This document shows positions 10,118 through 39,825 of a stretch of 47,816 bases of DNA, one piece after another (the stretch's first letter is position 1; the number at the start of each line of letters is the position of its first letter). The notes beneath the pieces were generated by a model. It did no database searches and was not told where the DNA came from. It was given only the letters and a program-made list of their open reading frames with translations. Where the stretch lies: the IMG/VR virus record IMGVR_UViG_3300042887_002926, positions 1-47,816 of that record; one strand, written 5' to 3'. This stretch comes from a virus. The position numbers and the translations under genes were made by a program.

Positions 10118-10612
10118 TCACTTCTTTGAAGCAGTGATCTTTACTTTGTTATAGGGATGCACCCCAAACAAATCGAACGGCACAGGATGTCCTGCGGCCA
10201 TTTGTTCCTTGATGAATGACTTCAGTGTGCTGGGGTGCACACGCTCGACCATCTCGCCGCCGATTTGTTGCGCGCAAGCCACAGCAGCGTCACGTTCGTC
10301 ACGCCCGAACTTGGCGACGACTTCGGTCTTGATCAAGCCGCCGAACCCGTTGGTCGTCAACCAGTCGTGCGCTCGTGCGCGGCGCTCTTCGCTGATGCCG
10401 CAGTCTATTTCTGGCTTGACTTCGATTGTTTCGCCGGTGGTGAGCTTGAACGTCGCCAACCCCAACTCTTGCATCAGGTCAGGCAAGTCTTCTTGCTCGA
10501 CGCGTCGCACGTCTTTTTTGGCTGTTTCCAGCTCATTTTCCAAGCGCGTGACGTTCTCGCGCAACTTCAACAGCAACTCAGCCAGCTGCACGGCACGGTG
10601 TAAATCGCTCAT
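10118..10612 (-). CDS. Coiled-coil phage protein of the replication operon
   Basis: 164 residues. The ATG at 10612 overlaps the upstream TGA (ATGA) and has GGAGG nearby (TGGAGGCGAACGT), so I prefer it to an upstream in-frame start. Residues 5-45 form a coiled coil (LLLKLRENVTRLENELETAKKD). The following domain has DLPDLMQELGLATFKL, then WLTTNGFGGLIK and a C-terminal FDLFGVHPYNKVKI. I recognise this layout from a protein often found next to recombination/SSB-like genes in phages, with no assigned function as far as I know. Basic C-terminal end. It is co-translated with the gene before it. Confidence 0.6.
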   Translation of the reverse strand: MSDLHRAVQLAELLLKLRENVTRLENELETAKKDVRRVEQEDLPDLMQELGLATFKLTTGETIEVKPEIDCGISEERRARAHDWLTTNGFGGLIKTEVVAKFGRDERDAAVACAQQIGGEMVERVHPSTLKSFIKEQMAAGHPVPFDLFGVHPYNKVKITASKK

Positions 10613-10944
10613 ACGTTCGCCTCCACGGAAATGTAGCTGCCTGATTGTCTGTCCCACTTAAGTATGCGCAGCAAGCCGCCGGTCTTGCGCACAGCAATGC
10701 AGGAAACTGCCGCGATGAGCGATGGGTCACCTACCGCAACAACATAATCTTCGTCTGAATAATCCTTCATCTGTTCGCGCAAGGCAGCGATCAATGGATT
10801 GATGTGGAGCCGGTTGGCGTTGGGCGGCAACATCACGACCAGCTCACCGAATGATTTGGCGTGATCCAAGTTGATGGAAGGCACCCAAAGTTTTGTGGCC
10901 GGGTCGTACTTGCTAGGTACTTGCGGCGCGTAGACTTTTGACAT
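10609..10944 (-). CDS. Hypothetical early protein
   Basis: 111 residues from the ATG at 10944, with TAGAAAGGA seven bases upstream; a GTG codon immediately before it is less likely to be the start. The N-terminal half reads like a short beta structure (PSKYDPATKLWVPSINLD), and the middle has ELVVMLPPNANRLHI and EDYVVAVGDPSLIAAVSC, giving alternating strands and helices. No domain is recognised. It is coupled by an ATGA overlap to the coiled-coil gene downstream, so the two products probably work together or need equal amounts. Confidence 0.55.
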   Translation of the reverse strand: MSKVYAPQVPSKYDPATKLWVPSINLDHAKSFGELVVMLPPNANRLHINPLIAALREQMKDYSDEDYVVAVGDPSLIAAVSCIAVRKTGGLLRILKWDRQSGSYISVEANV

Positions 10945-10974: not shown

Positions 10975-12453
10975 TTATCCCGCTATAGCCGCGATTTCGT
11001 CTCCCAGCACCATTGCGGCGGTACGCTGTTTGCGCTGCAAATTGCGCGCGATCTGTTCGTCGATTGTGTTCTCTGCGGCGATGTCGATGTAAACAACATT
11101 CTTGCGCGTGCCGATGCGGTGCGCGCGGTCTTCAGATTGCAGCCTTGTTTCGAGGTTGAAGTCATTGCTGAAGTAAAACACTGTCTCAGCCGCCGTCAAC
11201 GTCAACCCAATGCCGCCGGATTGAGGTTGTCCTACGAACACACGCACGTCGCCATTTTGGAAGCTGTCGACAGCGGCTTCCCTGTCGTCACGGCTCACCC
11301 CGCCGTGGTACTGAACGCAAGTGATGCCTGCGTCGGTGAGCGCGTCGCGGACAGCGTCCAGCTCTTCGCGGAACCGCGCCCATATGATGAACTTGCCGTC
11401 CACGTCTTCGATGGCGTCCATCAATGTTTTGAGTCGAGGGTTGTCGTCGGAAACGTACCGGATGCCGAGCGGCGTGTTGACGAAGCCAGACGTGATTTGT
11501 TGCAACTTGATCAATGCCGCCAACTCACTGACCGGCAACTCCACATTGTCGCCCAAATCAATGCGCAACTCGTCTTGCATTTTGTCGTAGGCGCGCTGTT
11601 GGTCGTTGTCCATTTCGAATGTGATGGTTTTGTAAATCTTGTCCGGCAAATCCAAGCAGTCTCGCTTCAACACGCGGAACGAATGCGGCTCCAGCAACTT
11701 TTGCAGCTTGTCAAGGTTGCGCCAACGCGGCGAGCCGTCTGGGTTGCGTGCGATGATTTGTGCGAATGCCGCGCGCGGGTTGCGGCGCACCATGTTTTGC
11801 ATGAGCGGGTGGGTGTTGGGCAGCACGTCAGCGTATTCAGAAACGAACGCTCGGTAGCTGGTCGTACCCAACAAGCCGCTCTCCAGAAACTCCATTTGTG
11901 CGAACACGTCCACCGGCGAGTTGGTGACCGGCGTGCCTGAGGCGATGCGAGCGCCCTTTGCGTACCGGCGCAGCCGCATGAGCGCTTTGGTGCGAGCGGC
12001 GTCTGGGTTCTTGATGCGTGAACTTTCGTCCAAAACAATCCAGGAGTTGCCGCTCAACAAGAATCGCTCACAAAACTCGTAGCCCTTTTTCGTCACCAGC
12101 GCGTCGATGTTCACAGCCAGGAACCGCAGCGGAACAGATTCACCTTCTTGACGAACCTTGAACAAATCTTCCAATGAGCGCATATACCGTTGACCAGCAC
12201 CTGAGCGCCATGCACGAGCGACGATGTTGCCTTCCATATGAGCAGGGATTTCTCGGTTGACCCAGTTGAGGTGAACGCCGTTGGGCGCCACCACCAAGAC
12301 GGTGTCGATTATCCCCTTGGCGTACAGCCGCTCGGCGTCTGCGAGCAGCGTCCAAGTCTTGCCGGTACCTTGTTCCATGAACAAGGCATAGGTCTGACGA
12401 CCGACCATGCGTTGTATGGCTTGCAGTTGATGCGCCATGCCTTGCGTTTTCAT
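10975..12453 (-). CDS. SNF2/SWI2-family DNA helicase-like ATPase
   Basis: 492 residues. Helicase motifs of superfamily 2, SNF2 branch, are present in order: Walker A EQGTGKT (27-33), DESS in place of DEAH (142-145), SGTP (172-175), and in the second RecA-like domain GIGLTLTAAE, then QSEDRAHRIG (motif VI). A Q-motif-like HQLQAIQRM stands at the N-terminus. Such proteins use ATP to translocate on double-stranded DNA; phage members are common near replication genes and may remodel forks or aid recombination. Start ATG overlaps the upstream stop (ATGA) with AGGAG in front. Length fits a compact phage helicase without accessory domains. Confident family, unknown precise job. Confidence 0.9.
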   Translation of the reverse strand: MKTQGMAHQLQAIQRMVGRQTYALFMEQGTGKTWTLLADAERLYAKGIIDTVLVVAPNGVHLNWVNREIPAHMEGNIVARAWRSGAGQRYMRSLEDLFKVRQEGESVPLRFLAVNIDALVTKKGYEFCERFLLSGNSWIVLDESSRIKNPDAARTKALMRLRRYAKGARIASGTPVTNSPVDVFAQMEFLESGLLGTTSYRAFVSEYADVLPNTHPLMQNMVRRNPRAAFAQIIARNPDGSPRWRNLDKLQKLLEPHSFRVLKRDCLDLPDKIYKTITFEMDNDQQRAYDKMQDELRIDLGDNVELPVSELAALIKLQQITSGFVNTPLGIRYVSDDNPRLKTLMDAIEDVDGKFIIWARFREELDAVRDALTDAGITCVQYHGGVSRDDREAAVDSFQNGDVRVFVGQPQSGGIGLTLTAAETVFYFSNDFNLETRLQSEDRAHRIGTRKNVVYIDIAAENTIDEQIARNLQRKQRTAAMVLGDEIAAIAG

Positions 12454-12872
12454 TCTTTGTCTCCTAGTTGCACCAGCATGTCAACGATGTTGTCGATGCC
12501 GATGAGCATTGCGGCTGACCTGAACTGCGGCGTGTTGTATTCGTTGATGTGGTCTGCGGTCGCGCCGCTGAACACGAACACTTCGTCGCTCACACCCACA
12601 ACAACCAGAGAAATGCCGCCCCAGTTGCGCCAGTTGAGATGCCAATTCTTTTGCACTTGCGAGAGCCCTTTGTCGCCGAGGACTTTGGTGGAGCTGCGCG
12701 CAGGCCAATCTTTCACATACTTCAATTCTATTGGGATGAAGTTGCCTTTCACTAATGTGTCCACGTCAGGCCGACCAACACCGACCAAATTCTCGATCCG
12801 TTCTGTGTACACGCGGCCCGCAGCAGCGTCACGCAGACGATCCCACAAGCGTTGTTCTGGACGTCGACTCAC
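12450..12872 (-). CDS. VRR-NUC-like endonuclease (PD-(D/E)XK fold)
   Basis: 140 residues, GTG start with AGGAGG six bases upstream, within the end of the polymerase gene (44-base overlap). The nuclease core is visible: E25, then VGRPDVD (P35-D36) and IELK (E49-L50-K51). These supply the metal-binding acidic residues and the catalytic Lys of the PD-(D/E)XK superfamily. VRR-NUC and related phage proteins cut branched DNA such as Holliday junctions. Between polymerase and SNF2 helicase genes, a role in resolving recombination intermediates before packaging is likely. Fold call is good; the junction-specific activity is inferred. Confidence 0.8.
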   Translation of the reverse strand: MSRRPEQRLWDRLRDAAAGRVYTERIENLVGVGRPDVDTLVKGNFIPIELKYVKDWPARSSTKVLGDKGLSQVQKNWHLNWRNWGGISLVVVGVSDEVFVFSGATADHINEYNTPQFRSAAMLIGIDNIVDMLVQLGDKE

Positions 12873-15660
12873 TCAAATCCTCCTGGCGGTTCAATACTTT
12901 GATGCGTTCAATTTTTATCATGCCGAAGTTCGGTATCTTCTTGCCGCGCACGAGCAACACATCCTGTTCAGCGACCAAGCGTTCCATAGCAATGCGGCCC
13001 AGCGGCTCGTACTTAAAGCGGTCGACGCGGCAAATGATTGGGATGCCGGTGTCGTCCTTCAAGAAAAAGTCAGCGAACAAAGTTTGCCCACTCAACTTGC
13101 GGCCATCTCGCCGCGCGACACGGACTGTTTCATTCTCGTCGCGCAATTCTTTCTTGGCGATTTTGCCAATGAACAGCACGTCAGCGCCGTCAGGCAGCTT
13201 GTCGGCTTTATAAATGACCGACCCAACCCGGCAACCATGGCCCACGGGGTCGGCGTACCAATCAGCGTAGGCGTGGCTGATTGGGTAGAGGTCACTGAAC
13301 TTGATGTGTGCTTCCTTGATGCGTTGCCGCAGCTTGTCGTCGGTTGTACCGAGACGGCGCGCTTCTACTGCGGCGACAGCTTTCGCAGGCCCGAACCCGA
13401 CAAGGTTCATGTAGCCGCCGATCAACCTGCCATTTTGCACCGACCAGTTGATGTCGCTCAGGTCTGGGTCGAACGCTGTATATTCCACGCCTTCACGAGC
13501 CATCTCACGCAGGATTTCCATCGTCTGGTCGTCGTCTTTGGCTGACCTGAGGCAAGCCGCTGCATATTCCAGCGGGTGGTACGCCTTCATCCAAGCGCAC
13601 CAATAGCTAATCACCGCATAAGCGCAGGTGTGCGACTTGTTCATGCCCCATGCGCCGAAGTTGCAGATTTCGTTCCAGATGTCTTGCGCGGTCTCTCCGT
13701 CAATTTTGTCTTGCGCCGCGCCTGCGATGAACTTTGCACCTTGCTGGTCAAAATATTCTTTCCCTTTGCGGCCAGACATCGCCTTGCGAATGACGGTGGT
13801 CTCATCCCACGAAAACTTGCCGATGTCGCGCACGATGCGCATGACTTGTTCTTGGTAGAGCACGACGCCGTATGTGTCAGCCAACAACTCCTCCAGCGCC
13901 GGGTGAGTGTAAGTCACCGGCTCTTGACCAGCCTTGCGAGCGATGTATTTCCCGGTCGCGCCGCCGCCCAATGGCCCTGGACGCGCCAACGCCGTCAGGT
14001 GGTCAACCGTTCTGAAATCGTCCACGTGCACTTGTGCTGAGATGGTGCGCTGGCTTTGTCCTTCAAACTGAAAGATGCCGGTGTATTTGCGCTGGTTGAA
14101 AATTTCGAGTACCTTCGGGTCGTCCAGTTTCAACCCATAAAGCTCCTCAGCCGTGACACAGTGCGTGTCCTCAATGATGCCGAGTGTGCGCAACCCCAAT
14201 GCATCAATCTTGAGCAAGTTCAGGTATTCGCTGTCTGGCTTGTCGAGTTGCGCAACCCCATCCGGCCCGATGGTGCAAAACTCATCGACCGGCACATTAC
14301 AAACAATCACCCCGGCGGCGTGTACGCCTGTGTGCCATGCGTGGTTTTCAACTTCTGACATGACCACAGCCTTTGGGTTGCGGTCCATGAATCGCCGCCC
14401 GATGTCGGTGTTGTTGAGCGTGTCCTCTAACCCTTTGCCGTAGCGTGAGTCACCTGACGAATACTCAATCAACACATTGAGCAGCTCGAACCGCTCTTTG
14501 TCAGGAATCCCGAACCGCTTGCAGACTTCGGCCATCACGCTGCGCGGCTTGAGCGTGTTGACGTTGCCGATGCGCGCCACACAGTTGCGACCATACTTCT
14601 CGGCAAGGTAATCGAAACATTGGTCGCGCTTGGTGTCCGAAAAGTCAATGTCGATATCAGGCAAATCCTTGCGCGTCAAATCAATGAACCGCTCGAACAA
14701 CAACCCATGCGGTATCGGGTCAACTTCGGTGATCCCCAACAAGTAACAAAGCAACGAACCAGCCGACGAGCCGCGCCCCGGCCCCACCAGCATGCGTTCC
14801 TTGGCCCAAGCAATCAAGTCGGCCACAACGATGAAGTAGCTCTCGAAATTTTTGGCTTCGATGGCGCTCAGTTCGCGCTGCAACCGGTCTTCGTATTCCT
14901 GCGGCCAAGATGCCAAGTGACCGAGCGACAAACGGTTCCTGCGCCCTTCTTCAGCCAGCGCGCGCAAGTCTCCATCCACATGAATCAGCGGCGCGGTAGG
15001 CAACGCACCAGCGCACCGTTCAGCGACTTCGTGTGTGTTGCGTACAGCTTGCTTCCAAGCATCGTCGTCCAGGATGCGTAACGCTGCGCGCAACTCCTGC
15101 TCGGAGAGGATGTGTTGCGGCGTTGTCGCCTCACGACCACCAATCGACATGAACGCGGCGTAGTCGGTTGGCTGGGGATAAAAATTGGCGCTGCTCAGGA
15201 CGAGGAGTTTGCCTGTACGACGTGCGAGCGCCAATGAAAAGCGTTGCGCCACGGGAGACGCAGGGTTGATGTCTACATAATCGAATGTGTCAGGGTCAGT
15301 CAACGCCGCGCCAGCGAACCTGATTACGCCCTTGCTCTCGCGCAGCAATGCGAGGGGGTCAGAATCTTTGGCGCGCAATGCGGTGCTGAACCGGTAAAAT
15401 GCACGAGTGTCCTCGGCCAGCGCCCATGCTTGCGGCTTGCGACCGTCTGGTAGCGTGACGGAAAACTCCGTACCGAATAACGGTTTGAATCCCTGAGCGG
15501 CTGCCGCTTTGGCCCAACGTACGTGACCCCAAGTGCCGCCGTCAACGATGCCTGCTGCTGGCGCGCCGAGCTCCTTGATGGCTGCCGCCACACGCGGCAC
15601 AGGGCCGAACGCTTGACGGAAGCTGAACTCGGTACGTACGCGCAACTGCGGGATTGTCAT
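12829..15660 (-). CDS. dnaE: DNA polymerase III alpha subunit (replicative polymerase, family C)
   Basis: 943 residues. Visible family C signatures: GPGRGSSAGSL (293-303), PDIDIDF (334-340; catalytic D335 and D337), KIDALGLRTL (third catalytic Asp D486), GIFQFEGQSQR (528-538), LYQEQVM (601-607) and NKSHTCAYAVISY (674-686). The N-terminal PHP domain is present in outline but begins RVRTEFSF where cellular enzymes read RVHSDYSM, so a metal-binding His is lost and PHP nuclease activity is unlikely. An OB-fold-like C-terminal region (about 825-920) follows. The chain is roughly 200 residues shorter than E. coli DnaE and seems to lack the tau-binding end. ATGA-coupled to the proofreading exonuclease gene. 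Very confident identification; phage members are known but uncommon. Confidence 0.97.
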   Translation of the reverse strand: MTIPQLRVRTEFSFRQAFGPVPRVAAAIKELGAPAAGIVDGGTWGHVRWAKAAAAQGFKPLFGTEFSVTLPDGRKPQAWALAEDTRAFYRFSTALRAKDSDPLALLRESKGVIRFAGAALTDPDTFDYVDINPASPVAQRFSLALARRTGKLLVLSSANFYPQPTDYAAFMSIGGREATTPQHILSEQELRAALRILDDDAWKQAVRNTHEVAERCAGALPTAPLIHVDGDLRALAEEGRRNRLSLGHLASWPQEYEDRLQRELSAIEAKNFESYFIVVADLIAWAKERMLVGPGRGSSAGSLLCYLLGITEVDPIPHGLLFERFIDLTRKDLPDIDIDFSDTKRDQCFDYLAEKYGRNCVARIGNVNTLKPRSVMAEVCKRFGIPDKERFELLNVLIEYSSGDSRYGKGLEDTLNNTDIGRRFMDRNPKAVVMSEVENHAWHTGVHAAGVIVCNVPVDEFCTIGPDGVAQLDKPDSEYLNLLKIDALGLRTLGIIEDTHCVTAEELYGLKLDDPKVLEIFNQRKYTGIFQFEGQSQRTISAQVHVDDFRTVDHLTALARPGPLGGGATGKYIARKAGQEPVTYTHPALEELLADTYGVVLYQEQVMRIVRDIGKFSWDETTVIRKAMSGRKGKEYFDQQGAKFIAGAAQDKIDGETAQDIWNEICNFGAWGMNKSHTCAYAVISYWCAWMKAYHPLEYAAACLRSAKDDDQTMEILREMAREGVEYTAFDPDLSDINWSVQNGRLIGGYMNLVGFGPAKAVAAVEARRLGTTDDKLRQRIKEAHIKFSDLYPISHAYADWYADPVGHGCRVGSVIYKADKLPDGADVLFIGKIAKKELRDENETVRVARRDGRKLSGQTLFADFFLKDDTGIPIICRVDRFKYEPLGRIAMERLVAEQDVLLVRGKKIPNFGMIKIERIKVLNRQEDLSESTSRTTLVGSSA

Positions 15661-16214
15661 ACTTTTTCCTCGAATGCCATCTTGTGTAAGTCTAACGCCA
15701 CCACCACTTCCACCAGCGCCATCACATCGTCCAGCGCCCGGTGAGTTTGCGGCAGCGGCTTGTTGAGCGTGAACTCATAGAGCTCAGTCAACTTAGGGTT
15801 GCGGCCCCATTGATCCTTGTGCAATCCAACGGTGCAATATTCTTGCGCTGGCCAAGGGAAGTCCAACACATCACACCGCGCCAAATCATTACGAATCATC
15901 GCCCGGTCGAACGGCAAGTTGTGTGCAAACACAGCGAACGCCTGTCCAAAGATGTGCCGCAGTTGTGGCAATGCATCTTTGAACGATGGCGCGCCGACGA
16001 GCGCGTCGTTGGTGATGCCTGTGATGCGCGTGATCTCGTCGGTGATGTCCTCGCCGGGGTGCACAAGTTGAGAGAGCGTCTCTACAACCTGACCTTGCTC
16101 ATCCACCAATGCCGCGCCAAGCTCGATTATCTTCGGTTGCTTGGCGAGCGGCGCTGATGGGTGCAACGTCAGCCCGGTTGTTTCCGTGTCGAAAACGAGA
16201 ACAAGGTTGCTCAC
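15657..16214 (-). CDS. dnaQ: DnaQ-like 3'-5' proofreading exonuclease (DEDDh)
   Basis: 185 residues, GTG start overlapping the upstream stop (GTGA). The DEDDh catalytic set is complete: D9 and E11 in FDTETTG, D103 in HNLPFD, and H158 with D163 in HRALDDV. This is the nuclease that removes misincorporated nucleotides as the epsilon subunit of DNA polymerase III. It ends in an ATGA overlap with the alpha subunit gene, so the two are made together and almost certainly act as one polymerase-exonuclease complex. No separate clamp-binding tail is obvious. Family and residues are clear. Confidence 0.93.
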   Translation of the reverse strand: MSNLVLVFDTETTGLTLHPSAPLAKQPKIIELGAALVDEQGQVVETLSQLVHPGEDITDEITRITGITNDALVGAPSFKDALPQLRHIFGQAFAVFAHNLPFDRAMIRNDLARCDVLDFPWPAQEYCTVGLHKDQWGRNPKLTELYEFTLNKPLPQTHRALDDVMALVEVVVALDLHKMAFEEKV

Positions 16215-16690
16215 CCGGCATTCTCCCGGCGCACGATGAACTTCAGGTCTGTGCCAAGGATGGCGCGCGTGTCGAAGATCACGTAATGATACTTGCGCTT
16301 TTGGTCAATCAAGAACTGGTTGGTGTGGCTGCGCGTGAACACTTCCTGCGCGACCTTGATGCCCATGGTGTTGAGCTTTTGGCGAAACTTTTCCAGCTCT
16401 TCCTCGGTGCAATGCATGCCAATGTGCGAAACAGTCGGACGCCGCCCAGACATCCAGTTTGGCCCGGTTGTGTAATCCAACACCTCCAACTCTAGCGGCT
16501 TGTCGCCGGGGCGAGTGTTTTGGTAGTTGAATGAGAGGTCAGCTTCATTCGTGCCAGAAACGCCGAACACACGACCGTCAGCCACCACATGGTCTTCGAC
16601 CCATTCGTTCAGGCCCAAGTCGGAGAGCAGTTGTTTGGCCTTCACTGGATCGTTCGGGCAAAGGGCAATTTGTTCGATGAAGAATTTCAT
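16211..16690 (-). CDS. VOC (glyoxalase/dioxygenase-fold) protein
   Basis: 159 residues from the ATG at 16690; GGAG lies six bases upstream, and an in-frame ATG at 16702 lies in the stop region of the preceding gene. The paired beta-alpha-beta-beta-beta modules of the vicinal oxygen chelate fold are suggested by FFIEQIALCPNDPVKAKQLL in the first half and VSHIGMHCTEEELEKF in the second, where H93-like and a late Lys/Asp-rich strand would line a metal site. VOC proteins include glyoxalases, dioxygenases and antibiotic-binding proteins. The gene directly follows an SDR gene (1-base gap), so a shared small-molecule reaction is possible. Substrate unknown. Confidence 0.6.
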   Translation of the reverse strand: MKFFIEQIALCPNDPVKAKQLLSDLGLNEWVEDHVVADGRVFGVSGTNEADLSFNYQNTRPGDKPLELEVLDYTTGPNWMSGRRPTVSHIGMHCTEEELEKFRQKLNTMGIKVAQEVFTRSHTNQFLIDQKRKYHYVIFDTRAILGTDLKFIVRRENAG

Positions 16691-16691
16691 T

Positions 16692-17372
16692 TCAAGCTCC
16701 ATAAGGTAGCACGCAACCAGTCAGGTATTTGTGCCGGGGTTTATTGTGCAACAAAAAGGCCATGAACTCTGCGAGCTGGGCCGGGTCAGTTTCCTCACCG
16801 GCCAGCAGGGCATTGATTTGATATTGTTCAGCGTATTCTTTCGTCCAGCCGCGATGCTTGATGACTTGTTCCTCGATGTCCTTGGACATTTCGGTACCCT
16901 TGAGCTTGTTGGGGCTGATGCCGAAGACGGTGATGCCGTGTTTCTTGGTCAGCTCGCGCGCCAGCTGCAGCGTCATGATGTGCGCGGCCCCTTTGGAAGC
17001 GTTGTAAGCGAGCGATGTCGTCATGGGCATGTGCGACGCATTGCTCACGATGTTCAACACGGTGCCATGCGAACGCTTCAACTCCGGCAGCGCCCACTGG
17101 GTCATGCGGTAGATGCCCTTTGCGTTCACCGTCAAGACGTCATCCCAATCCTCTTCTTGGAAATCTTCCAGCCAGCCTGTGATGTTGATCCCTGCGCAGT
17201 TGATCAACACGTCCAGCCGCTCAGGACAGTCACCGTAAGTTTCTTGCGGGTCAACAACGTCATTGCCCTTCTTGCGGTCGAACTCAAACACCTCATGCCC
17301 ATCGCGGCGTAGTGCCGCAACAGCCAGCTTGCCGAGCCCGGCCCCAGAGCCGGTGACGAGAATCTTGCTCAT
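16692..17372 (-). CDS. Short-chain dehydrogenase/reductase (SDR)
   Basis: 226 residues. The Rossmann nucleotide site TGSGAGLG (7-14) matches the SDR TGxxxGxG motif, NCAG (58-61) stabilises the central sheet, and the catalytic set is visible as N83, S110, Y123 and K127 (YNASK). Complete SDRs are NAD(P)H-dependent oxidoreductases acting on alcohols, ketones or sugars. Start ATG has the shared AATCAGAAAGGA upstream. All key residues are kept, so an active enzyme is expected, but the substrate cannot be told. In a phage this is an auxiliary metabolic gene; it lies between a DUF6378 gene and a VOC gene in the nucleotide-metabolism stretch. Confidence 0.88.
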   Translation of the reverse strand: MSKILVTGSGAGLGKLAVAALRRDGHEVFEFDRKKGNDVVDPQETYGDCPERLDVLINCAGINITGWLEDFQEEDWDDVLTVNAKGIYRMTQWALPELKRSHGTVLNIVSNASHMPMTTSLAYNASKGAAHIMTLQLARELTKKHGITVFGISPNKLKGTEMSKDIEEQVIKHRGWTKEYAEQYQINALLAGEETDPAQLAEFMAFLLHNKPRHKYLTGCVLPYGA

Positions 17373-17656
17373 TGCTTTTCCTTTCTGATTAATGATTCGA
17401 CCATGGCGGCGTAAACAGCGAGGTCATGGATTGAGTCTTCGTGCGTCAGGTCGCTGTTGGCGAACCGCGTCATCTTCACAACCATCAACTCGAACAAATG
17501 CCAGACGTTGTAATCTTCTGCGGTGTGCAACCAAACCCCATCAGGGAACATGGCCGTCATGACGTCGCCCACTCGCTTGTAATTGTCGCCATACACTTTG
17601 TTGCGTTCACGGTAGGTCTCGGCCATTTCGGCCAGGATGTCAGCGGCTGTCTTCAT
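17369..17656 (-). CDS. DUF6378-like protein (possible MazG-type nucleotide hydrolase relative)
   Basis: 95 residues from the ATG at 17656, which has AGGAG before it and overlaps the upstream stop as ATGA. Helical throughout, with KVYGDNYKRVGDVM (20-33), HLFELMVVKMTRFA and HEDSIHDLAVYAAM (72-85). This pattern of YGD, a K-x-x-R helix and a final H-x-D-S-x-x-D-x-A-x-Y helix matches the DUF6378 family common in phages. The all-alpha acidic layout recalls MazG/dUTPase-like nucleotide pyrophosphohydrolases, but that link is inference. Neighbours are a HAD phosphatase and SDR, in keeping with nucleotide or small-molecule metabolism. Confidence 0.65.
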   Translation of the reverse strand: MKTAADILAEMAETYRERNKVYGDNYKRVGDVMTAMFPDGVWLHTAEDYNVWHLFELMVVKMTRFANSDLTHEDSIHDLAVYAAMVESLIRKEKQ

Positions 17657-18141
17657 GCGGGCTCCTTGGTCTTGGGTTTTGTGTAGGCACAAACATTGTG
17701 AATCTCTCGCTTTTCAGCTTTTATCCCGGCGCGGAGATACATCGCCACCACGTCAGGCCTGTCGTCGTATGCCGCGACAATTTCTTCCATGGGTACCCCA
17801 TAGATGTGCGGCAACCAGTTGAGCATCGTTTGCTTGAGTTCCAACGAATGACGGTGGTCATTGTTGTTGCGCATGACAAGGTATTCATAAGGTATCTTGT
17901 TGCGACGCAACCATTCCTTCGTCAGCGCGGCGTAGTGCACTGGGCGCGCGGTGAAGATGATTGTCTTGGCGTCGAAATGCTTTTCGAATATGTCGATGTT
18001 GCCGACATGGTCGAAGCCGCTCAACGAATGGTAGTCGTGGTAGCGCTCCATGGGGTCTGACTTTTGCCAGTTGATGTGCGGGATGCGCCATGCGTCGTCA
18101 GCGATGCAGTTGTCGAGGTCGACGATTATGAACTTGTTCAT
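17653..18141 (-). CDS. HAD-family phosphatase (polynucleotide kinase 3'-phosphatase-like)
   Basis: 162 residues. HAD motifs are complete: motif I VDLDN (nucleophile D8, general acid D10), motif II TAR (T64), K103 as motif III, and motif IV AYDDRPD (D126, D127, with D130). The AYDDRPD ending and overall size resemble the phosphatase half of T4 polynucleotide kinase and related phage deoxynucleotidases, which remove phosphates from DNA/RNA 3' ends or nucleotides. No kinase domain is attached. Its ribosome site TCAGAAAGGA lies inside the coding end of the DenV-like gene. Substrate choice between nucleotides and nucleic-acid ends is open. Confidence 0.82.
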   Translation of the reverse strand: MNKFIIVDLDNCIADDAWRIPHINWQKSDPMERYHDYHSLSGFDHVGNIDIFEKHFDAKTIIFTARPVHYAALTKEWLRRNKIPYEYLVMRNNNDHRHSLELKQTMLNWLPHIYGVPMEEIVAAYDDRPDVVAMYLRAGIKAEKREIHNVCAYTKPKTKEPA

Positions 18142-18500
18142 GCAGTTTTCCTTTCTGAGATACGGTCACGGTTGAGTTGCAGTGCTGCTTCGTCAGGCGT
18201 CCACTCGCCCCACCACTCAGGCGGCAAGTTGACTGGTGGTGGTTGCACGTATTGCGGCTTGTACCCGCGCACCAACATCTCCAGCCGCAACGCCAAAAAC
18301 CGATCAAGGCACCAGCCGAGCCGCTGGTAGAAGAACTTGACGTGGCCAGCGCCCAACGTATAGCGCTCAGGCGCCACGAACTTTCGTTTGGACTGGTAGG
18401 CTTTGGCCGCTAGATTAAAAACGCGCGGTAGCTCGCGGTATTCAGCCAGCAGGTGCTGCCGGGAGAGCTCTTCGGGCGGCACGCAATTGATCCGGGTCAT
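18138..18500 (-). CDS. denV: Pyrimidine-dimer DNA glycosylase (T4 endonuclease V-like)
   Basis: 120 residues against 138 in T4 DenV. The start MTRIN matches T4 DenV exactly: T2 is the catalytic N-terminal amine after Met removal, R3 contacts DNA, and E23 in AEYRELPRVF is the catalytic Glu; H16 is also kept. LGAGHVKFFY matches the T4 segment LGAGHVTFFY. The enzyme cuts the glycosyl bond of UV-induced pyrimidine dimers and nicks the site, starting base excision repair. AAGGAGG for its start lies in the end of thyX (ATGA overlap). A sunlit water habitat would fit. The shortened C-terminus lacks the aromatic tail of the T4 enzyme. Confidence 0.92.
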   Translation of the reverse strand: MTRINCVPPEELSRQHLLAEYRELPRVFNLAAKAYQSKRKFVAPERYTLGAGHVKFFYQRLGWCLDRFLALRLEMLVRGYKPQYVQPPPVNLPPEWWGEWTPDEAALQLNRDRISERKTA

Positions 18501-19219
18501 TTTGCCTCCTTGCGCATCTTGTCCACGATCTTCAGCAGTCGGCCCTTCTTAAGTAAATCGCCGCCATATTCTTCCTCGGCGAACTTTTCGATCTCTGCAA
18601 AGTAGTCGCGCCCTTGCTGGAACAAGAACTTCTCAGCCCATGGGTGCACGCGCAACACCTCATCGCACATCGCGTTCATGACCTTCTGATATTCGTTTTG
18701 TGTGCGTCCACCGGTGCGGCTCTTGGCGAGGTCTACGAATGACCTGAGGTTGAACTTGGCGACGATGTTGGTGCTGATGTTGGTCGGCAAGATGCCACGT
18801 GCGTCTTCGGCTGGCAGCCCGAGCTCGATCAACTTGTTGTAGCCGAGCCGGATATTCTCATTGACGATGTCGACGATGCCGCGTGCCTGAATGTCGTTGT
18901 TCACGCGGTCGGTATAGACGTAATCATATTCGCCCATGTTCAACACGCGCATTGTTTGTTGCGCGTAGGAAGCGTTGCGGCTCCGCACGAACTGATGAGT
19001 GAACGCGCGGCTGACGCCTTCAATCATGAAAACGTAATCCACAAACTCCCACGAGCTGGGGATTGTGTTGGCCATGTAATCTAGTTCGGCGAGCTTCTTT
19101 TCTTCCGGCCAAGCACGAATCTCATCCATCAACCCCGGCGACATCGTCAGCCGAGTTGACTTGGTGAAGATCAGAAGCTCCATGGCTTCTGGCGTTGTGC
19201 TGATTAATGTTACCTTCAT
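18497..19219 (-). CDS. thyX: Flavin-dependent thymidylate synthase ThyX, variant signature
   Basis: 240 residues, about the usual ThyX length. Family features: SRAFTHQFVR, the signature region R79-S80-R81 followed by NASYAQQT, and ARGILPTNISTNIVAKFNLRS near residue 145 onward. ThyX makes dTMP from dUMP using FAD, NADPH and methylene-tetrahydrofolate. The classical RHRx7S signature reads RSRx7T here (H to S at 80, S to T at 89), a notable change in residues that contact flavin and dUMP. The start ATG carries CTTAGAAAGGAACAACC upstream and lies inside the end of the upstream zinc-ribbon gene. It would supply thymidine for phage DNA unless the altered site signals another pyrimidine reaction. 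Confidence 0.9.
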   Translation of the reverse strand: MKVTLISTTPEAMELLIFTKSTRLTMSPGLMDEIRAWPEEKKLAELDYMANTIPSSWEFVDYVFMIEGVSRAFTHQFVRSRNASYAQQTMRVLNMGEYDYVYTDRVNNDIQARGIVDIVNENIRLGYNKLIELGLPAEDARGILPTNISTNIVAKFNLRSFVDLAKSRTGGRTQNEYQKVMNAMCDEVLRVHPWAEKFLFQQGRDYFAEIEKFAEEEYGGDLLKKGRLLKIVDKMRKEAK

Positions 19220-19580
19220 GGTTGTTCCTTTCTAAGTTCAAGTCAATTTTCGCAACTCTTCTGTGAGGAGAAACGTCTAACGGAGATGCGCGTATTTGCC
19301 GCACGCGCGTGGCGGTGATGTTGAAGTCTTTGGCGACCACTGAAGCTGGCCGGTCATCCATGGAAATCATTAAATCGCGATTATACCTGCCGATGCGGCG
19401 TTTTATGTGACGCACCGCACAATCGAACTCCCGCTTGTCGCCCAACAACGACAAGTGAACTTCCATTGTTGAGAAGCGATGTTTCCGGTCACAAATGCGC
19501 GCATACTCAACACAATATTCGAGCGGCCTGTGGCTCACGCCGATGACCGCACTCTCAGACCCGCAAATGGGACAGTTCAT
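19122..19580 (-). CDS. Zinc-ribbon/HTH regulator-like protein
   Basis: 152 residues from the ATG at 19580 (ATGA overlap with the FAD gene). It starts MNCPICGSES, with a second ligand pair in RICDRKHRFSTME, like the NrdR zinc ribbon except that one Cys is replaced by His. After a basic helix (RHIKRRIGRYNRD) comes a helix-turn-helix with FNITATRVRQIR, which has the shape of sigma-70 region 4. A role in binding DNA or the host RNA polymerase is plausible. The frame runs 98 bases into thyX, so the last 30 or so residues are of doubtful value. Name withheld; the regulator idea is inference. Confidence 0.6.
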   Translation of the reverse strand: MNCPICGSESAVIGVSHRPLEYCVEYARICDRKHRFSTMEVHLSLLGDKREFDCAVRHIKRRIGRYNRDLMISMDDRPASVVAKDFNITATRVRQIRASPLDVSPHRRVAKIDLNLERNNHEGNINQHNARSHGASDLHQVNSADDVAGVDG

Positions 19581-20476
19581 GCTGCGGCTCTCCGCAGGTC
19601 GTAGGCGTTGTTGGCCTTGAGCAGCTTCTTGATTGCCGCGATGTCGTCTACAACGTCGTCGAGCAGTATGTTGCGCCAAGTCGCGAACCGACCCAACGAA
19701 TATATGTTGCGCTCCATGGTGAGCCTGAACAACAGTTGTTTGCGCACAGCGTCATCGATGGGTGCAATCTTGCCATACTTCTGGTCAACTGAACCCAACG
19801 ACTCACACCCGCTCAGTTGGATGCCGAAGCTCTTGTTGATTTCTTCGTCGTCCATGTCGCCGAGCGGCCCGACCGTTTCCACGATGAGTGTGTCGCCGGT
19901 GATGCTGGCGCGGTAGACGTTCAAGTGCTGTTCGGGGTAGTAGAGTGTTTGGAACACGTCAGCGCCGGGGATGCGCCAGCGATGCACCGTGATGCCAGAG
20001 CGCGAGAACGTCACCGGGGCGAGCCACCCCACCAAGCTCAACACCACCGGCAACGGCGCTGTGGAGATGGTTGGGCGCGGCGCGTTGTAGTTGGCGGGTG
20101 TTTCCCAGTCAATCCGGTCATTCACTGCGGCCACCAGCTGCTCATATAAGTCGTCCGGCGCGATGAACCGTTCAGCCGGGTCAAGGTTCCAAATGCTCCG
20201 CTCACCGGCCAGCCGCCCGACAACCTTCTGGGCGTAAAGGTTGGCCCAACGGATGGCGCTGGTTTGTTGGGTGCCGTCGGCCCAGATGCCCTTGCGTACC
20301 CGAACCTTGCGGAACTCAATGCCCGTCAGCCGCGCGACAGCGTCACTGCGGAAACGCAGCAACGCCTTGTGCGCAGCTTTGGGTTGCGCAGCGGCTTCCA
20401 CCACTTGCGCATTCGGCCACGCATGGGCTGCAATCAGCCCCGCGAGGCCAGCGCCAACGATCACTGGGGCCGTCAT
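19577..20476 (-). CDS. FAD-dependent oxidoreductase-like protein
   Basis: 299 residues. The N-terminus PVIVGAGLAGLIAAHAW is a classic FAD-binding Rossmann GxGxxG start, and a C-terminal NIYSLGRFATWRNILLDD resembles the second FAD-contact region seen in amine-oxidase and UDP-galactopyranose-mutase-like flavoproteins. The middle is unfamiliar. The substrate is unknown. It is coupled by ATGA overlaps to genes on both sides, in a set leading into ThyX, itself an FAD enzyme. Such short FAD proteins recur in phages without known function. FAD binding is likely; the reaction is not inferable. Confidence 0.75.
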   Translation of the reverse strand: MTAPVIVGAGLAGLIAAHAWPNAQVVEAAAQPKAAHKALLRFRSDAVARLTGIEFRKVRVRKGIWADGTQQTSAIRWANLYAQKVVGRLAGERSIWNLDPAERFIAPDDLYEQLVAAVNDRIDWETPANYNAPRPTISTAPLPVVLSLVGWLAPVTFSRSGITVHRWRIPGADVFQTLYYPEQHLNVYRASITGDTLIVETVGPLGDMDDEEINKSFGIQLSGCESLGSVDQKYGKIAPIDDAVRKQLLFRLTMERNIYSLGRFATWRNILLDDVVDDIAAIKKLLKANNAYDLRRAAA

Positions 20477-21036
20477 TCGTCATCCTCAACGATGGCGAGA
20501 TGATTTTTCTCGACCAGCTTTTGCAGGTAGCCGCGCACGTTTTGCTGGAAGTGTTCCTCTAGCTCTGCCACCGTGCAGGTTTGGTTCGGTGCGTTTTGCA
20601 CGTAGACCAACACTTGGTTGCGGATTGAACCGGCTTGCGGGCGAGATTCACCCGCGTTGGTGGCGACCACCTTGTGAATGATTACGCGTTTGCGTCGTTC
20701 GCCTTTGGGTTGCTCTGAGACTTTCGGGCGCGGCTCGATGGGTTGTTGTGCCGTCACGGCATCGTGCAGTGAATGACTCATGGTGCCTTCCTTGTACGGA
20801 TTGTTGTTTTTTATTTCGCTGGGCGTGAGCGCCACTGGCTGCACGCCTTTGGGCACGCCTGCGCGCCCGACAGCGTCCTGAGCGGACATGATGGCCATGC
20901 CCACTTGCACTTCTGCTGCTGCGCGGCTCCCGAACCCTTTGAAGCCGGGATCATTCTTCAGCGCGCGGTAAGTTGCGTTCAAGTCTTCCAATGTAGCGCC
21001 CTTCACGGCGTCACGGTCGCGGATGATGTTTGGCAT
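20473..21036 (-). CDS. Hypothetical protein with C-terminal winged-helix-like region
   Basis: 187 residues from the ATG at 21036, which has CTCAGAAAGGT upstream; longer in-frame starts run into the DUF932 gene and are unlikely. The first half includes ATLEDLNATYRALKND and SRAAAEVQVGMAI. A basic, disordered middle (PKGERRKRVIIHKV) leads to a C-terminal helix pattern, NQVLVYVQNAP then TVAELEEHF and VRGYLQKLVEKNHLAIVED, resembling a winged helix. DNA binding is possible. No named family recognised. Confidence 0.55.
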   Translation of the reverse strand: MPNIIRDRDAVKGATLEDLNATYRALKNDPGFKGFGSRAAAEVQVGMAIMSAQDAVGRAGVPKGVQPVALTPSEIKNNNPYKEGTMSHSLHDAVTAQQPIEPRPKVSEQPKGERRKRVIIHKVVATNAGESRPQAGSIRNQVLVYVQNAPNQTCTVAELEEHFQQNVRGYLQKLVEKNHLAIVEDDE

Positions 21037-21079
21037 TGCGTTCACCTTTCTGAGTTTGCTGAATTGATTATGCTGGATT

Positions 21080-21823
21080 TTACCACGTCTCGGCAACTTC
21101 TTCTGCGAGTTGCCACAACTGCGCATTGTAGTCTACCGAGCGAGTGATGTCGCTCAATGGGCGGGAAGTGGCCGCACGACCTGAGCGTGAGAGGCCTTCG
21201 ATGCCGCCGCGCACGGTATTTTCCTGGACGCGGTTGAACACCGACCACAAGTCACCCTTGTCGTCTTCTGCGCGGCGCGGCTCCAGCAACTCAGCCGGTG
21301 AGAACCGTTGCGCGTCACCCCAACGCAGTTGTGCGGCGAAGCGCGCGAACTCAATGCGCTGACTTTTGCTCAGGTCAACTTTCGACCAGCGGTCGATTTG
21401 CGTGTAGAGCTTGGAAGTGTTTTTCGCCAACCCTTGCATGCGGTGAATCAAGTCAGCCGCCGCGTCACCGGTGTGACGTACCACTTCATGGCCAACCGTG
21501 TTGCCGACAACCAGCCCATTGGCGCAAACGAACCGGAACACTCCCGCCATCACGCGCGCCGAGGAAGAACCGTCGTGGCTGTTGATGAGGATGATGCGCG
21601 GTACGGCCCCATTGATTTCTTCGTGGTCTGGGTGGCGAAAGTCGATCATGTGCTTGGCGTAAAGTGAACTACGCTTGCGCGGGTTGGCGACGGAGCTGGT
21701 GGCAACCTGCCAACCTTCTTGCGCGAAGCGGTCGACAATCTCGCCGCTGGAAATGAATTGGTAACGCGCGCTCACAGTTGGGGCGGCTCCGTTGACCAAG
21801 GCGGGTGCTGGTAGTGTTTTCAT
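21080..21823 (-). CDS. DUF932 (phage/plasmid-like TIGR03299-type) protein
   Basis: 247 residues; ATG with GAGGAGACACTC before it. The DUF932 core is visible: RYQFISSGEIVDRF, then RIILINSHDGSSSARVMAGVFRFVCANGLVVG, and a long helical second half. DUF932 proteins are widespread on phages and plasmids and are often induced early; a role in plasmid/phage DNA maintenance or defence evasion has been suspected but is not settled. Its neighbours are small early proteins of unknown function. Family call is good; function open. Confidence 0.8.
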   Translation of the reverse strand: MKTLPAPALVNGAAPTVSARYQFISSGEIVDRFAQEGWQVATSSVANPRKRSSLYAKHMIDFRHPDHEEINGAVPRIILINSHDGSSSARVMAGVFRFVCANGLVVGNTVGHEVVRHTGDAAADLIHRMQGLAKNTSKLYTQIDRWSKVDLSKSQRIEFARFAAQLRWGDAQRFSPAELLEPRRAEDDKGDLWSVFNRVQENTVRGGIEGLSRSGRAATSRPLSDITRSVDYNAQLWQLAEEVAETW

Positions 21824-22856: not shown

Positions 22857-23489
22857 TTAGAGGATGGTTGGGCGGCTGATCATAGTTTGCGCAACGCCGT
22901 CACGCTCACCGTGTTCTTTGATCGTTGCTTTGACGCGCAGTTCATCGCCGCGCTCCCAAGGGTTAGAACCTTTGTAAACGACAACATTGTTGTCACCGTC
23001 GCGGCACACATTCACAAACGTGATTCCGAACCGCGTTTCGAAAGAGAACACAGCTTCCACTTTCAATGCAAACTCACGGCGCTCGCCGACGTTGCCGACA
23101 TGCTGGCTGTTGGCGCGGTCGAGATCTTTCTTCGCAGCGAAATCAATCAAACGCTGTTCAGCGCGCGCCAATGCTTTGGCGACCACAGCAGTTTGTTTTT
23201 CGCTCAACGAACCCCAGTCATCCAGCGCGCATTGCATCTGAGCAAGCATGTTGCCGAAATCGCCCTTGTACATTCCGCGCACCAATGGGTGCGGCTTGTC
23301 TTCGTCTGCTGGGTGATGCTTGAACTCGCCGCGTTGGTTCAGCCAATCGCTCAGGCGCGCGTTGTTCGGGTCAGCTGCGAGCCACTCACGTGAGCGACGG
23401 ATGGCTGCGTTGCGCTTGATTGCATCGGCGCGACCCTGCTCCCATGCGCCTACATTGTGAATTAGTGTGCCGCCGGTCGTGATTCTCAT
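22857..23489 (-). CDS. Conserved phage hypothetical protein, first gene of the minus-strand operon
   Basis: 210 residues, first gene after the divergent control region. N-terminal basic helices (RADAIKRNAAIRRSREWLAADP) are followed by WLNQRGEFKHHPADEDKPH. The C-terminal part NVGERREFALKVEAVFSFETRFGITFVNV with VVVYKGSNPWERGDELRVKATIKEHGERDGV has an OB-like beta-rich pattern and matches a widespread phage domain whose G-E-R and K-G-x-x-x-x-x-x-G-D motifs I recognise but cannot name. RNA or DNA binding is a fair guess. Early position suggests a takeover or replication role. Confidence 0.6.
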   Translation of the reverse strand: MRITTGGTLIHNVGAWEQGRADAIKRNAAIRRSREWLAADPNNARLSDWLNQRGEFKHHPADEDKPHPLVRGMYKGDFGNMLAQMQCALDDWGSLSEKQTAVVAKALARAEQRLIDFAAKKDLDRANSQHVGNVGERREFALKVEAVFSFETRFGITFVNVCRDGDNNVVVYKGSNPWERGDELRVKATIKEHGERDGVAQTMISRPTIL

Positions 23490-23688: not shown

Positions 23689-24618
23689 ATGAAGGAAAAT
23701 GAAGCATTTCTGGCCGATTTGGCCAGAGGGTTGGCCCCGGACGAGCGCCTTATTTTGTGCGGCTTCCCCGGCGACCCTTACGCCGCTGGCCCGACCGCTT
23801 GGCGGCCCCGGCCATGGAAGGTGGGCGCTGAGGTGCCATTCGGGCCGCTGGACAACGCCTACGTGACCGTGGGCGCGTTCAAGCGCGCCACCGACGGTAC
23901 CTACCGCCGCCGCACCGAGACGTTCACGGCTGGCTTGGCGCTCATGGTGGACGATGTCGGCACAAAGGTTGACCGGACATTTGTGGAGGCAATGCAGCCA
24001 ACTTGGAAGATCGAAACTTCTCCCGGCAACGAACAGTGGTGGTACTTCTTGCAAGAGCCTGAGCGCGACATGGCGCGGTTCGATGGGCTTATACGCGCGT
24101 TCATTCACGGCAAGCTCCTGGGCGCGGATCCAGGGATGAGCGGCGTGACACGTGTGGGCCGGTTGCCCGGACACTTGAATGGCAAAAAGGCCTACAACGG
24201 CTGGACAACGCGCGTGACGGAAGCCAACGGCACCCGGTGGACGCCGCAAGAACTCCTGGACGGGTTCGGGTTGCAAATCCGTGGACAGAGAGTCGCGCGG
24301 GAAAAATTGCCGACTGAGGAAGCGTTAGAGCGCAACCGTATGTTCATGAACGTCTACAAGTGGCTCGACCAGCGCAACATGCTCAAGCGGCATGAACCCG
24401 ACCCGAGCGGTTGGACAGAGATGACTTGCCCATGGGTGGGTGACCACACTGGCGGCGTTGATTCAGGGGCCGCGATACGTGAGCCAGCGCCCGAGAACGA
24501 TTATTACGGTGCCTTCAGGTGCCACCATGGACATTGTGTCAACAAGGGTTGGTCGCAGTTGACGGAATGGGTGAACGAAGAATCAATCGAAGAACTGGAA
24601 AGGGCCGCGCATGAATGA
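23689..24618 (+). CDS. RepB-like/AEP-type DNA primase
   Basis: 309 residues, start ATG preceded by CTCAGAAAGGATAAATT. Features of a small archaeo-eukaryotic-type primase family: the acidic pair in LALMVDDVGTK (D88, D89), a TSPGNEQWWYFLQEP strand (110-124) and RVGRLPGHLNGK (155-166), where R and N/K contact nucleotides. The C-terminal part holds a zinc-type motif CPWVGDHTGG (C247, H253) with FRCHHGHC (C278, C283). Such proteins make RNA or DNA primers and work with a separate helicase; a DUF5906 helicase gene lies 1.6 kb downstream on the same strand. First gene of the plus-strand early unit. Strong family match. Confidence 0.82.
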   Translation: MKENEAFLADLARGLAPDERLILCGFPGDPYAAGPTAWRPRPWKVGAEVPFGPLDNAYVTVGAFKRATDGTYRRRTETFTAGLALMVDDVGTKVDRTFVEAMQPTWKIETSPGNEQWWYFLQEPERDMARFDGLIRAFIHGKLLGADPGMSGVTRVGRLPGHLNGKKAYNGWTTRVTEANGTRWTPQELLDGFGLQIRGQRVAREKLPTEEALERNRMFMNVYKWLDQRNMLKRHEPDPSGWTEMTCPWVGDHTGGVDSGAAIREPAPENDYYGAFRCHHGHCVNKGWSQLTEWVNEESIEELERAAHE

Positions 24619-25569: not shown

Positions 25570-26213
25570 GCTTTATTTGCCCGTTGCCGCCCATAAAAGT
25601 GCTTGTAAGAGCTGAATATTTGTATGACTTTGAGCGAGGCCATAACGAACAAGTACAAGGCGTTTGGGTGAGCTGCAAATCGCTGCGCGGCGAAGCGCTG
25701 CGGTTCGAAACTTACCTGCCTGAATATGGCGCGTTGTTCGACAAATTGCCTATCAGCGCATTTTTGCATGATGAGAAAATGCAGCTGGGCGAGTTGCCGC
25801 TGGACGTGTTGCAAATTTGGGATGCCATGAGCTATGACATCACACTCGTGGAAAAGCCGTTGTTGAAAGGGTTGCGCGCTGAATTTTTCGGCAAAGATAA
25901 ACGAACGCATTCCGGCGAATACATGTTCACACTCGACAATGCGCACACCGACCCGCGAGTGCCAGACTACACATTCAGTGAAACGCCTGACGAACACAAG
26001 TCGTTCAATGTGTTGAAACTCGACAATGGACAGTTCGCGTTGCAACCGAACAACCGTTGCCGCTTCTTTGACCCGGCGCTCAACCCGCACGAAATGAAGA
26101 TGCCGAACTTCCACGTCGCGACCAAAAAGTATCGCGTCGAACAACATGCAAAGTGGCGGTTAGGCGACACAACAACAACAACATACGACGACAGGGTCGA
26201 GGAAAAAGAATGA
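25566..26213 (+). CDS. Conserved hypothetical protein preceding primase-helicase
   Basis: 215 residues, ATG at 25566 in an ATGA overlap with the gene before, with GGAGAGGA upstream; an in-frame ATG at 25458 lies inside that gene and is rejected. The fold looks beta-rich (LVRAEYLYDF, QVQGVWVSCKSLRGEALRF) with DKLPISAFL and CRFFDPALNPHEMKMP near the end and a Thr run at the C-terminus. I recall similar proteins beside phage DUF5906 helicases but cannot name them. Probably an accessory protein for replication. Confidence 0.6.
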   Translation: MSFICPLPPIKVLVRAEYLYDFERGHNEQVQGVWVSCKSLRGEALRFETYLPEYGALFDKLPISAFLHDEKMQLGELPLDVLQIWDAMSYDITLVEKPLLKGLRAEFFGKDKRTHSGEYMFTLDNAHTDPRVPDYTFSETPDEHKSFNVLKLDNGQFALQPNNRCRFFDPALNPHEMKMPNFHVATKKYRVEQHAKWRLGDTTTTTYDDRVEEKE

Positions 26214-27718
26214 CAACAATCGAGGAAAGAACTGCCGCCAGAGAAGCGGCGCTGGCAGCAGCCGTGGCAGCTTCCCGGCGGCTCGCGCGGCCTGAAGACT
26301 ACGTGTTCGACAAAGCGCAAGAGGCATTTTGGGACTTGCGTGACGGGACACAACATTCAGAAAAAGCGGTCGACGCTTCCATCCCTATCGAGCTTTGGCG
26401 CGTTGAAGTGGAAGAAGCCGAAGAGGAAGCGCCAGCCGAAGGGCGGCGCGGGCGGCAACGGCGTCGACGTGAACGGCTCATCCCACCTTCGCGCGATATC
26501 ATGCGCGTCGAAAATGATCAGTTCGTCGAAGGTAGCACGTGGTGGCCCGGTGAGCCGCAAATCATCAAGGATATATTTATAGATTCCAACGGGTGGCGTC
26601 CAGCGCCGGGCCGCAGGATCTATAACAAATACCTGCCGCCGCCCGAACTCACCGGCGACGCTGCACAAGCGGTTGTTTGGGTCAACCACGTACGCAAGCT
26701 CTGGCCCGACCCGGTCGAACATGAATTCTTCTTCGACTTCTGCGCGCATATGGTCCAGCGCCCAGACATAAAGTGCAACGCCGCAATCGTCTTGAGCGGC
26801 ACACAAGGCATCGGTAAAGATGCGGCGCTCATGCCAGTGAAAGCTGCGGTAGGCAACTGGAACACCAAGAACATCGACCCCGACGAGCTGTTTTCTCCGT
26901 ACAAGCCGTGGCTCGAGACCTTGATGCTCGTGGTCGACGAAGTGCGCCCGACGAAGGATGAGTTCCATGCGTCGAGCGCTTACAACATCCTCAAACCAAT
27001 GATCGTCGCACCCCCAGACACGCTGCCGCTGAACGACAAATACGCGAAGCTCCGCCACATCATCAACCGACTGCGCGTGTTCATCACGACCAACGACTGG
27101 ATGAGCATGTACATCCCGCCCGAAGACCGCCGCATGTTCATCATGCACTCTCACCTGCCACAAAAGTGGCATGAGAAAGAAAAACAACCAGCCTACTTCA
27201 ATGAGTTGTTCGCGTGGTTCGAAAGTGGCGGCATCAATCACGTTGCCGCATGGCTGGCGGCGAGAGATCTTTCAGCGTTCGACCCCAAGGCACAAATCGC
27301 TCGCACAGCAGGCTGGGGCGCTGTGGCGGCTTCCTGGGGCGAACCTGAAGACGCTGTCGCTTGGGTGCTTGACCAGCTGGGCAACCCACCCGCCATCCTA
27401 GGACAAGAACTCGTCAACCCACAGTTCGACCACAGGGAAGAAGTCGCCAACATGCTCAAGTCGCCGCGCAAGATCTCTCACCGCATGAACCGCGCGGGCT
27501 ACGTCAATGTGCCTGCACCGGGCGGCGCTGACCGATGGGTGTTCCGCTCGGAAGGCAAAACGCTGCGCGCGAGATATGCATTCGTGCGCGGAGAGCTGAC
27601 CCGTGATATCGATGCCGCGACCGAGCTGGTCCGCAAAAGAGGAGAAGAATTGCTCGCCGCACAATCCCAAGATGGGGGAAATGTGGTCGTTTTGGAAGCA
27701 AAAAAGGGCGGATTCTGA
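26210..27718 (+). CDS. DUF5906-type primase-helicase ATPase
   Basis: 502 residues from the ATG at 26210 (ATGA overlap, GAGG upstream). The N-terminal 110 residues are charged and probably disordered. The ATPase core has FDFCAHMVQRPDIKCNAAIVLSG, Walker A GTQGIGKD (197-204), a Walker B-like LMLVVDEV and a sensor FITTND, the hallmark set of the phage/virulence-associated helicases grouped as DUF5906. These unwind DNA at the fork and usually pair with an AEP primase. The C-terminal domain (about 380-500) may bind DNA. It ends right at the start of the repeat cluster that may be the origin. Confidence 0.85.
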   Translation: MTTIEERTAAREAALAAAVAASRRLARPEDYVFDKAQEAFWDLRDGTQHSEKAVDASIPIELWRVEVEEAEEEAPAEGRRGRQRRRRERLIPPSRDIMRVENDQFVEGSTWWPGEPQIIKDIFIDSNGWRPAPGRRIYNKYLPPPELTGDAAQAVVWVNHVRKLWPDPVEHEFFFDFCAHMVQRPDIKCNAAIVLSGTQGIGKDAALMPVKAAVGNWNTKNIDPDELFSPYKPWLETLMLVVDEVRPTKDEFHASSAYNILKPMIVAPPDTLPLNDKYAKLRHIINRLRVFITTNDWMSMYIPPEDRRMFIMHSHLPQKWHEKEKQPAYFNELFAWFESGGINHVAAWLAARDLSAFDPKAQIARTAGWGAVAASWGEPEDAVAWVLDQLGNPPAILGQELVNPQFDHREEVANMLKSPRKISHRMNRAGYVNVPAPGGADRWVFRSEGKTLRARYAFVRGELTRDIDAATELVRKRGEELLAAQSQDGGNVVVLEAKKGGF

Positions 27719-30465: not shown

Positions 30466-30468
30466 GCC

Positions 30469-30711: not shown

Positions 30712-30717
30712 TGAGCT

Positions 30718-35956: not shown

Positions 35957-35974
35957 TTTTTTATGGAGGCAACA

Positions 35975-36706: not shown

Positions 36707-36718
36707 AGGAGATGAACC

Positions 36719-37675: not shown

Positions 37676-37678
37676 GTG

Positions 37679-37707
37679 TTGCCTTTTTTGAAATTCCACA
37701 ACATAAT
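37679..37707 (+). promoter_or_regulatory. Sigma-70-like promoter ahead of the capsid module
   Basis: TTGCCT (37679-37684), a 17-base spacer and CATAAT (37702-37707) match a sigma-70 promoter, in the 61-base gap between scaffold and next head gene. Transcription would begin near 37714, just before the ATG at 37737. Extra expression of capsid genes would make sense. Confidence 0.55.
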
Positions 37708-39817: not shown

Positions 39818-39825
39818 GCAGTGAA

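Follow-up and report, generated by a model that had tools for sequence, protein, structure and literature searches.

The DNA analysed here (IMG/VR record IMGVR_UViG_3300042887_002926, positions 1 to 47,816) is a linear, partial 47.8-kb fragment of an uncultivated virus genome, and we refer to this whole stretch as the window. Our focus is on two adjacent genes that encode a DnaE-type family C DNA polymerase (alpha) and an epsilon-like exonuclease. An initial annotation made from the letters alone had already placed both reading frames, and we confirmed their coordinates exactly:

12829 to 15660, minus strand: DnaE-type family C DNA polymerase (alpha), 943 residues, assigned from Pfam, PHROG and PDB matches and a structural model
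15657 to 16214, minus strand: DEDDh 3'-5' exonuclease (epsilon-like), 185 residues, GTG start, assigned from RNase_T, PHROG 192 and its catalytic residues

The epsilon gene lies upstream, and its stop codon overlaps the start of alpha by 4 nt (GTATGA).

Several comparisons identify alpha. Pfam placed DNA_pol3_alpha (PF07733; E=1.9e-64, 218 bits against a cut-off of 23.9) and DNA_pol3_finger (PF17657; E=8.2e-40, 136 bits against 22) on it, together with a weak N-terminal PHP domain (PF02811; E=9.5e-6, 26.5 bits, just above the 26.4 cut-off) that is also matched in 13 of 15 relatives. TIGR00594 scored 461 bits (cut-off 434), and PHROG 405, named 'DNA polymerase', spanned residues 1-780 (E=4.6e-235). 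Searches of PDB sequences matched the alpha subunits of T. aquaticus, E. coli and M. tuberculosis with E about 1e-86, and a Foldseek comparison of folds recovered the same Pol III alpha structures (E as low as 2e-43) from an AlphaFold model built with 15 sequences (mean predicted local distance difference test score 75.7). The catalytic aspartates D335, D337 and D486 correspond by alignment to D401, D403 and D555 of E. coli. Epsilon matched Pfam RNase_T (E=3.7e-24) and PHROG 192, 'DNA polymerase exonuclease subunit', and it has the full DEDDh set (D9, E11, D103, H158, and D163). The three aspartates and the complete exonuclease site had been claimed from the sequence alone, and every one of these residues is present. 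The protein identity of alpha to its counterpart in a 57.8-kb relative, G001, is 91%, while DNA identity over the gene is about 83%, indicating that alpha has been kept as a protein, as is expected of a conserved working protein. As judged from its sequence, alpha is a catalytically complete family C polymerase, with polymerase activity itself predicted.

Relatives of alpha are found in 1,317 of 50,697 phage records by tblastn, and in 552 of them the match spans 80% or more of the query. The strongest matches were Luteibacter phage Pluto, Serratia MyoSmar-like phages, Xanthomonas phages of the XcP1/Carpasina type, and Pseudomonas PB1-like phages, with about 47-50% identity over 98% of the protein. 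A published survey of 18,382 Caudoviricetes genomes counted 6,560 polymerases of family A, 2,857 of family B, and 947 of family C (PMC11348598). The rarity in phages suggested by the initial annotation therefore holds only relative to the other families, as family C is the least common polymerase family in Caudoviricetes, yet not exceptional. Of the placement against DnaE1, DnaE2, and DnaE3 that had also been proposed, the first two comparisons could be made: in a tree of 46 polymerases, which included neither PolC nor a confirmed DnaE3, alpha joined IMG/VR contigs and a group consisting of PB1, XcP1, Pluto, WTB, and Bas98 in an all-phage clade (SH-aLRT 95-100). This clade adjoins actinobacterial phages and lies outside both the bacterial DnaE1, which includes E. 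coli, and DnaE2. Consistent with this, alpha scored far under the cut-offs of DnaE1 models (for example, 492 of 1002 bits for NF004226) and reached 364 of 939 bits with the DnaE2 model NF004225. Scanning genomes with the window alpha as sole query gave no bacterial relative, a nine-sequence polymerase alignment had no stretch conserved enough for scanning, and a scan from a four-sequence alignment recovered DnaE of bacterial genomes with a best-segment identity of 28-36%. Because these bacterial matches are so distant, we see neither a recent donor among bacteria nor a prophage copy. With the window, the phages that use a bacterial-type polymerase gain an uncultivated lineage, a finding that is largely known already.

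Compared with E. coli Pol III alpha, to which it is about 29% identical, the phage protein has the PHP domain, three-aspartate core, helix-hairpin-helix (HhH), and OB fold in common, but it lacks the second HhH, the internal clamp motif, and the C-terminal domain, and it forms a separate branch. Mapping on E. coli DnaE showed that PHP motif 1 reads RVRTEF in place of RVHSDY, so that the first histidine is replaced. The initial annotation had seen this substitution correctly, but its significance did not hold up: the closest phages have lost the same histidine, and PMC3919608 reports that the PHP metal site is likewise not conserved across DnaE3, the majority of DnaE2, and three major proteobacterial classes, which makes the loss unremarkable. 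The first HhH is kept at residues 751-769 and is the only one that aligns to E. coli DnaE. The stretch from there to the OB fold, which begins at residue 827 in the model, is about 58 residues, compared with roughly 140 in E. coli (from 854 to the OB match at 1000), and the second HhH and the position of the clamp motif (E. coli 920-924) are gone. The polymerases of PB1, XcP1, Pluto, WTB, and Bas98 show the same loss. Those of PB1 and WTB (L003:10001-13108 and L034:2992-5922) carry an insert directly after the first HhH, in the region of the missing second one, which is long in PB1 and short in WTB.

The Pfam family for the tandem (HhH)2, HHH_6, was likewise not found in alpha or in the polymerases of PB1, XcP1, and Pluto, and it matched 1 of 15 close relatives, weakly, whereas it was found in the controls (E. 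coli DnaE, a DnaE2, and three other phage polymerases). Its absence marks alpha as a variant architecture within the C-family. The tau-binding C-terminal domain (PF20914) is present in E. coli DnaE and was not found in alpha by Pfam, as had been supposed from the sequence. C-terminal to the core, the model predicts an OB fold, a beta barrel at about residues 827-922; an archaeal RPA domain was among the Foldseek matches of the model (TMt 0.77), and the Pfam OB family PF01336 was not detected in alpha. As this architecture is common to close relatives, we regard it as a property of a known clade.

The genes around the pair extend the likeness to these phages:

10118 to 10657, minus strand: PHROG 2378 cassette protein, in the position of a phage WTB protein named 'host-nuclease inhibitor'
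10975 to 12453, minus strand: SNF2-like helicase (SNF2-rel_dom, Helicase_C), 47% identical to that of Pluto
12450 to 12872, minus strand: small nuclease/helicase-associated protein (PHROG 2165), overlapping the end of alpha, whose Pluto homologue is called a nuclease
16211 to 16702, minus strand: conserved protein, before epsilon in XcP1 and Pluto in the same order
16692 to 17372, minus strand: short-chain dehydrogenase, before epsilon in XcP1 and Pluto in the same order
17369 to 20476, minus strand: the remaining collinear cassette, with a polynucleotide-kinase-like protein, ThyX, a conserved 299-residue protein, and a 107-residue protein that is matched in XcP1, Pluto, and PB1

Between 10118 and 20476, there are 11 collinear matches in XcP1, 12 in Pluto, and 8 in PB1, and the identity of cassette proteins to their XcP1 and Pluto matches is about 33-59%. 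The order, running from ThyX through epsilon, alpha, the small nuclease, and the SNF2 helicase to the PHROG 2378 protein, is that of the PB1/Carpasina type. XcP1 (a Carpasinavirus), Pluto, MyoSmar, and PB1 all have a separate epsilon directly upstream of alpha and the same cassette order, and their alpha likewise lacks the second HhH, clamp motif, and C-terminal domain. They differ in having genomes of 61-69 kb, and the window virion proteins had no match in the compared stretches of XcP1, Pluto, and PB1. At 52-59%, the identity of the dehydrogenase and the conserved protein (16211-17372) to XcP1 and Pluto is slightly above that of alpha itself.

Two further genes on the opposite strand bear on the replication fork:

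23689 to 24618, plus strand: RepB/AEP-type primase (PF16793; PHROG 4861, DNA primase)
26153 to 27718, plus strand: SF3-like (DUF5906, D5-type) helicase, assigned from Pfam and from PHROG families 1156 and 1829, named 'DNA primase'

Relatives of the primase occur in 360 phage records, mostly of the PB1-like group, and it is retained in most long relatives. A primase and two helicases had been predicted, and such proteins are indeed present; the helicase-like protein other than the SF3-like one is SNF2-like, not a replicative hexamer. Searches of the window and of relatives detected neither a family A (PF00476) nor a family B (PF00136) polymerase. By contrast, its description of the phage as close to a self-sufficient replisome of bacterial type does not stand. 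No DnaB (DnaB_C) or DnaG (Zn-ribbon) was found in the window or the sampled relatives, and no beta clamp (PF02767) was found there or in 11 relatives; because of this, and because the primase is of RepB/AEP type and the helicase SF3-like, the fork is a hybrid and not a bacterial-type replisome.

Taken together, we consider it highly probable that alpha and epsilon are the replicative DNA polymerase core of the phage itself, set in a PB1/Carpasina-like cassette for replication and nucleotide metabolism. This reading draws on the domains, catalytic residues, PDB and fold matches, collinear cassette, and all-phage clade described above, as well as on the finding of no other polymerase family and the presence of a primase and an SF3-like helicase on the same genome. 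The four proteins would then work together: the RepB/AEP primase most likely makes the primers, the SF3-like helicase most likely opens the fork, and alpha and epsilon most likely copy both strands, with elongation by the DnaE-type alpha and proofreading by the separate DEDDh epsilon from the overlapping upstream gene. Host single-stranded DNA-binding protein (SSB), ligase, and possibly clamp would fill the remaining gaps.

Some observations weigh against this interpretation. Neither an SSB nor a clamp-binding motif was found, which leaves parts of the fork unaccounted for. The SSB family PF00436 was not found in the sampled relatives or in the window, where not all small open reading frames were scanned, and the three proteins considered as candidate SSBs (20473-21126, 21080-21823, and 22857-23489) match only families of unknown function, so that the SSB proposed in the initial annotation was not identified. 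In addition, the 185-residue epsilon ends 27 residues past catalytic His158 and has no counterpart of the tail through which E. coli epsilon binds alpha; physical coupling of alpha and epsilon is therefore unproven.

How alpha would stay on DNA is the point at which two other explanations diverge. The initial annotation held that alpha must reach a host clamp by some other route or do without it, a choice that would concern the entire known clade. One of the two explanations differs from the replicase core set out above solely in the clamp step: the alpha lineage may be clamp-free, with the retained HhH, the OB fold, and the fork proteins holding the DNA. We give this a reasonable though minor share of our confidence. 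The loss of the second HhH and clamp motif in the window, PB1, XcP1, Pluto, WTB, and Bas98 fits it, as does the absence of HHH_6 from the window alpha, PB1, XcP1, and Pluto despite its presence in the controls. No clamp gene was found, in line with what had been noted from the sequence, and a search for clamp-binding peptides detected no canonical pentapeptide in 17 window proteins, while a looser pattern did not exceed its frequency in shuffled proteins. Such peptides are short and variable, however, and this search would overlook any that departs from the consensus, whether in alpha, epsilon, or a partner; moreover, bacterial replicases of family C require a clamp. More tentatively still, a large phage family C clade as a whole may have lost the canonical clamp contact and replicate without a sliding clamp, or with an undescribed tether, under an AEP primase and an SF3-like helicase. 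If so, its fork would be a hybrid that matches neither the bacterial nor the T4/T7 type. As the clamp-site loss is common to cultivable phages such as PB1, it is testable whether phage family C replicases depend on a clamp.

It is also conceivable, but in our view unlikely, that a host clamp is reached through a peptide near the C-terminus of epsilon, LHKMAF (residues 176-181). It is placed after the last catalytic histidine in a similar way to QTSMAF in E. coli epsilon, and a peptide of the form LHx[MLV][AP][FY] is present in most close relatives. The key glutamine is absent, however, two relatives (L011 and L013) have LHELAL, the peptide is missing in the deeper relatives (L018, L021, L022, L025, PB1, and Pluto), and it may be simply the end of the last helix. 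We consider it very improbable that alpha serves in repair or translesion synthesis and not as the main replicase, for although alpha resembles DnaE2 in its missing C-terminal domain and degenerate PHP site, it is separate from the supported DnaE2 clade in the tree, has a linked epsilon, and is the sole polymerase found in the phage.

While the replicative core resembles that of PB1 and its relatives, the virion module (28737-42559: terminase, portal, GroES-like protein, capsid, and tail adaptor) is related to Caulobacter phage RW. Capsid identity is 81% to RW, 80% to Manatee Spring phage ctpbd312, 43% to CRP-901, and 41% to HTVC023P, and portal identity to RW is 58%. In RW and Roseobacter phage CRP-901, the genes for capsid, portal, and GroES and those beside them are arranged as in the window. 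These phages differ from it in their replication genes, as RW has a family A polymerase with an Enc34-type SSB, CRP-901 has a Prim-Pol and no separate polymerase, and HTVC023P has a family A polymerase. From these gene contents, the whole replication block looks to have been swapped between phage groups, leaving related virion modules with different polymerase families. Polymerase swapping of this kind, in which replication genes are exchanged together, is described for Caudoviricetes in the corresponding sections of PMC11348598; the family A/C swaps treated there concern an SPbeta-like clade, and those sections make no mention of the window lineage. The findings overturn no existing views, and they contribute a new case of related virion modules (RW capsid, 81%) paired with different polymerase families.

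Several other genes of the window deserve mention. The product of 21080-21823 is a DUF932 protein with 42-99% identity across relatives, and its best named matches are mostly phages with genomes >350 kb. The C-terminal part of the 22857-23489 product is common to many unrelated phages (272 records), and one relative is annotated as 'replication factor' in Burkholderia phage BcepSauron. Between the primase and the SF3-like helicase, 25458-26213 matches PHROG 3704, 'ferredoxin' (E=1.3e-89), a doubtful name; the HTVC023P homologue of its product lies under a gene annotated PurM. Alignment to G001 indicates that the roughly 10 kb missing from the window comprises tail-fibre, lysis, and related genes. 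At its far end, 46106-47816 encodes one or more tail-end proteins with repeated units such as 'YITIATTGNATDFGDLT', cut by the end of the contig.

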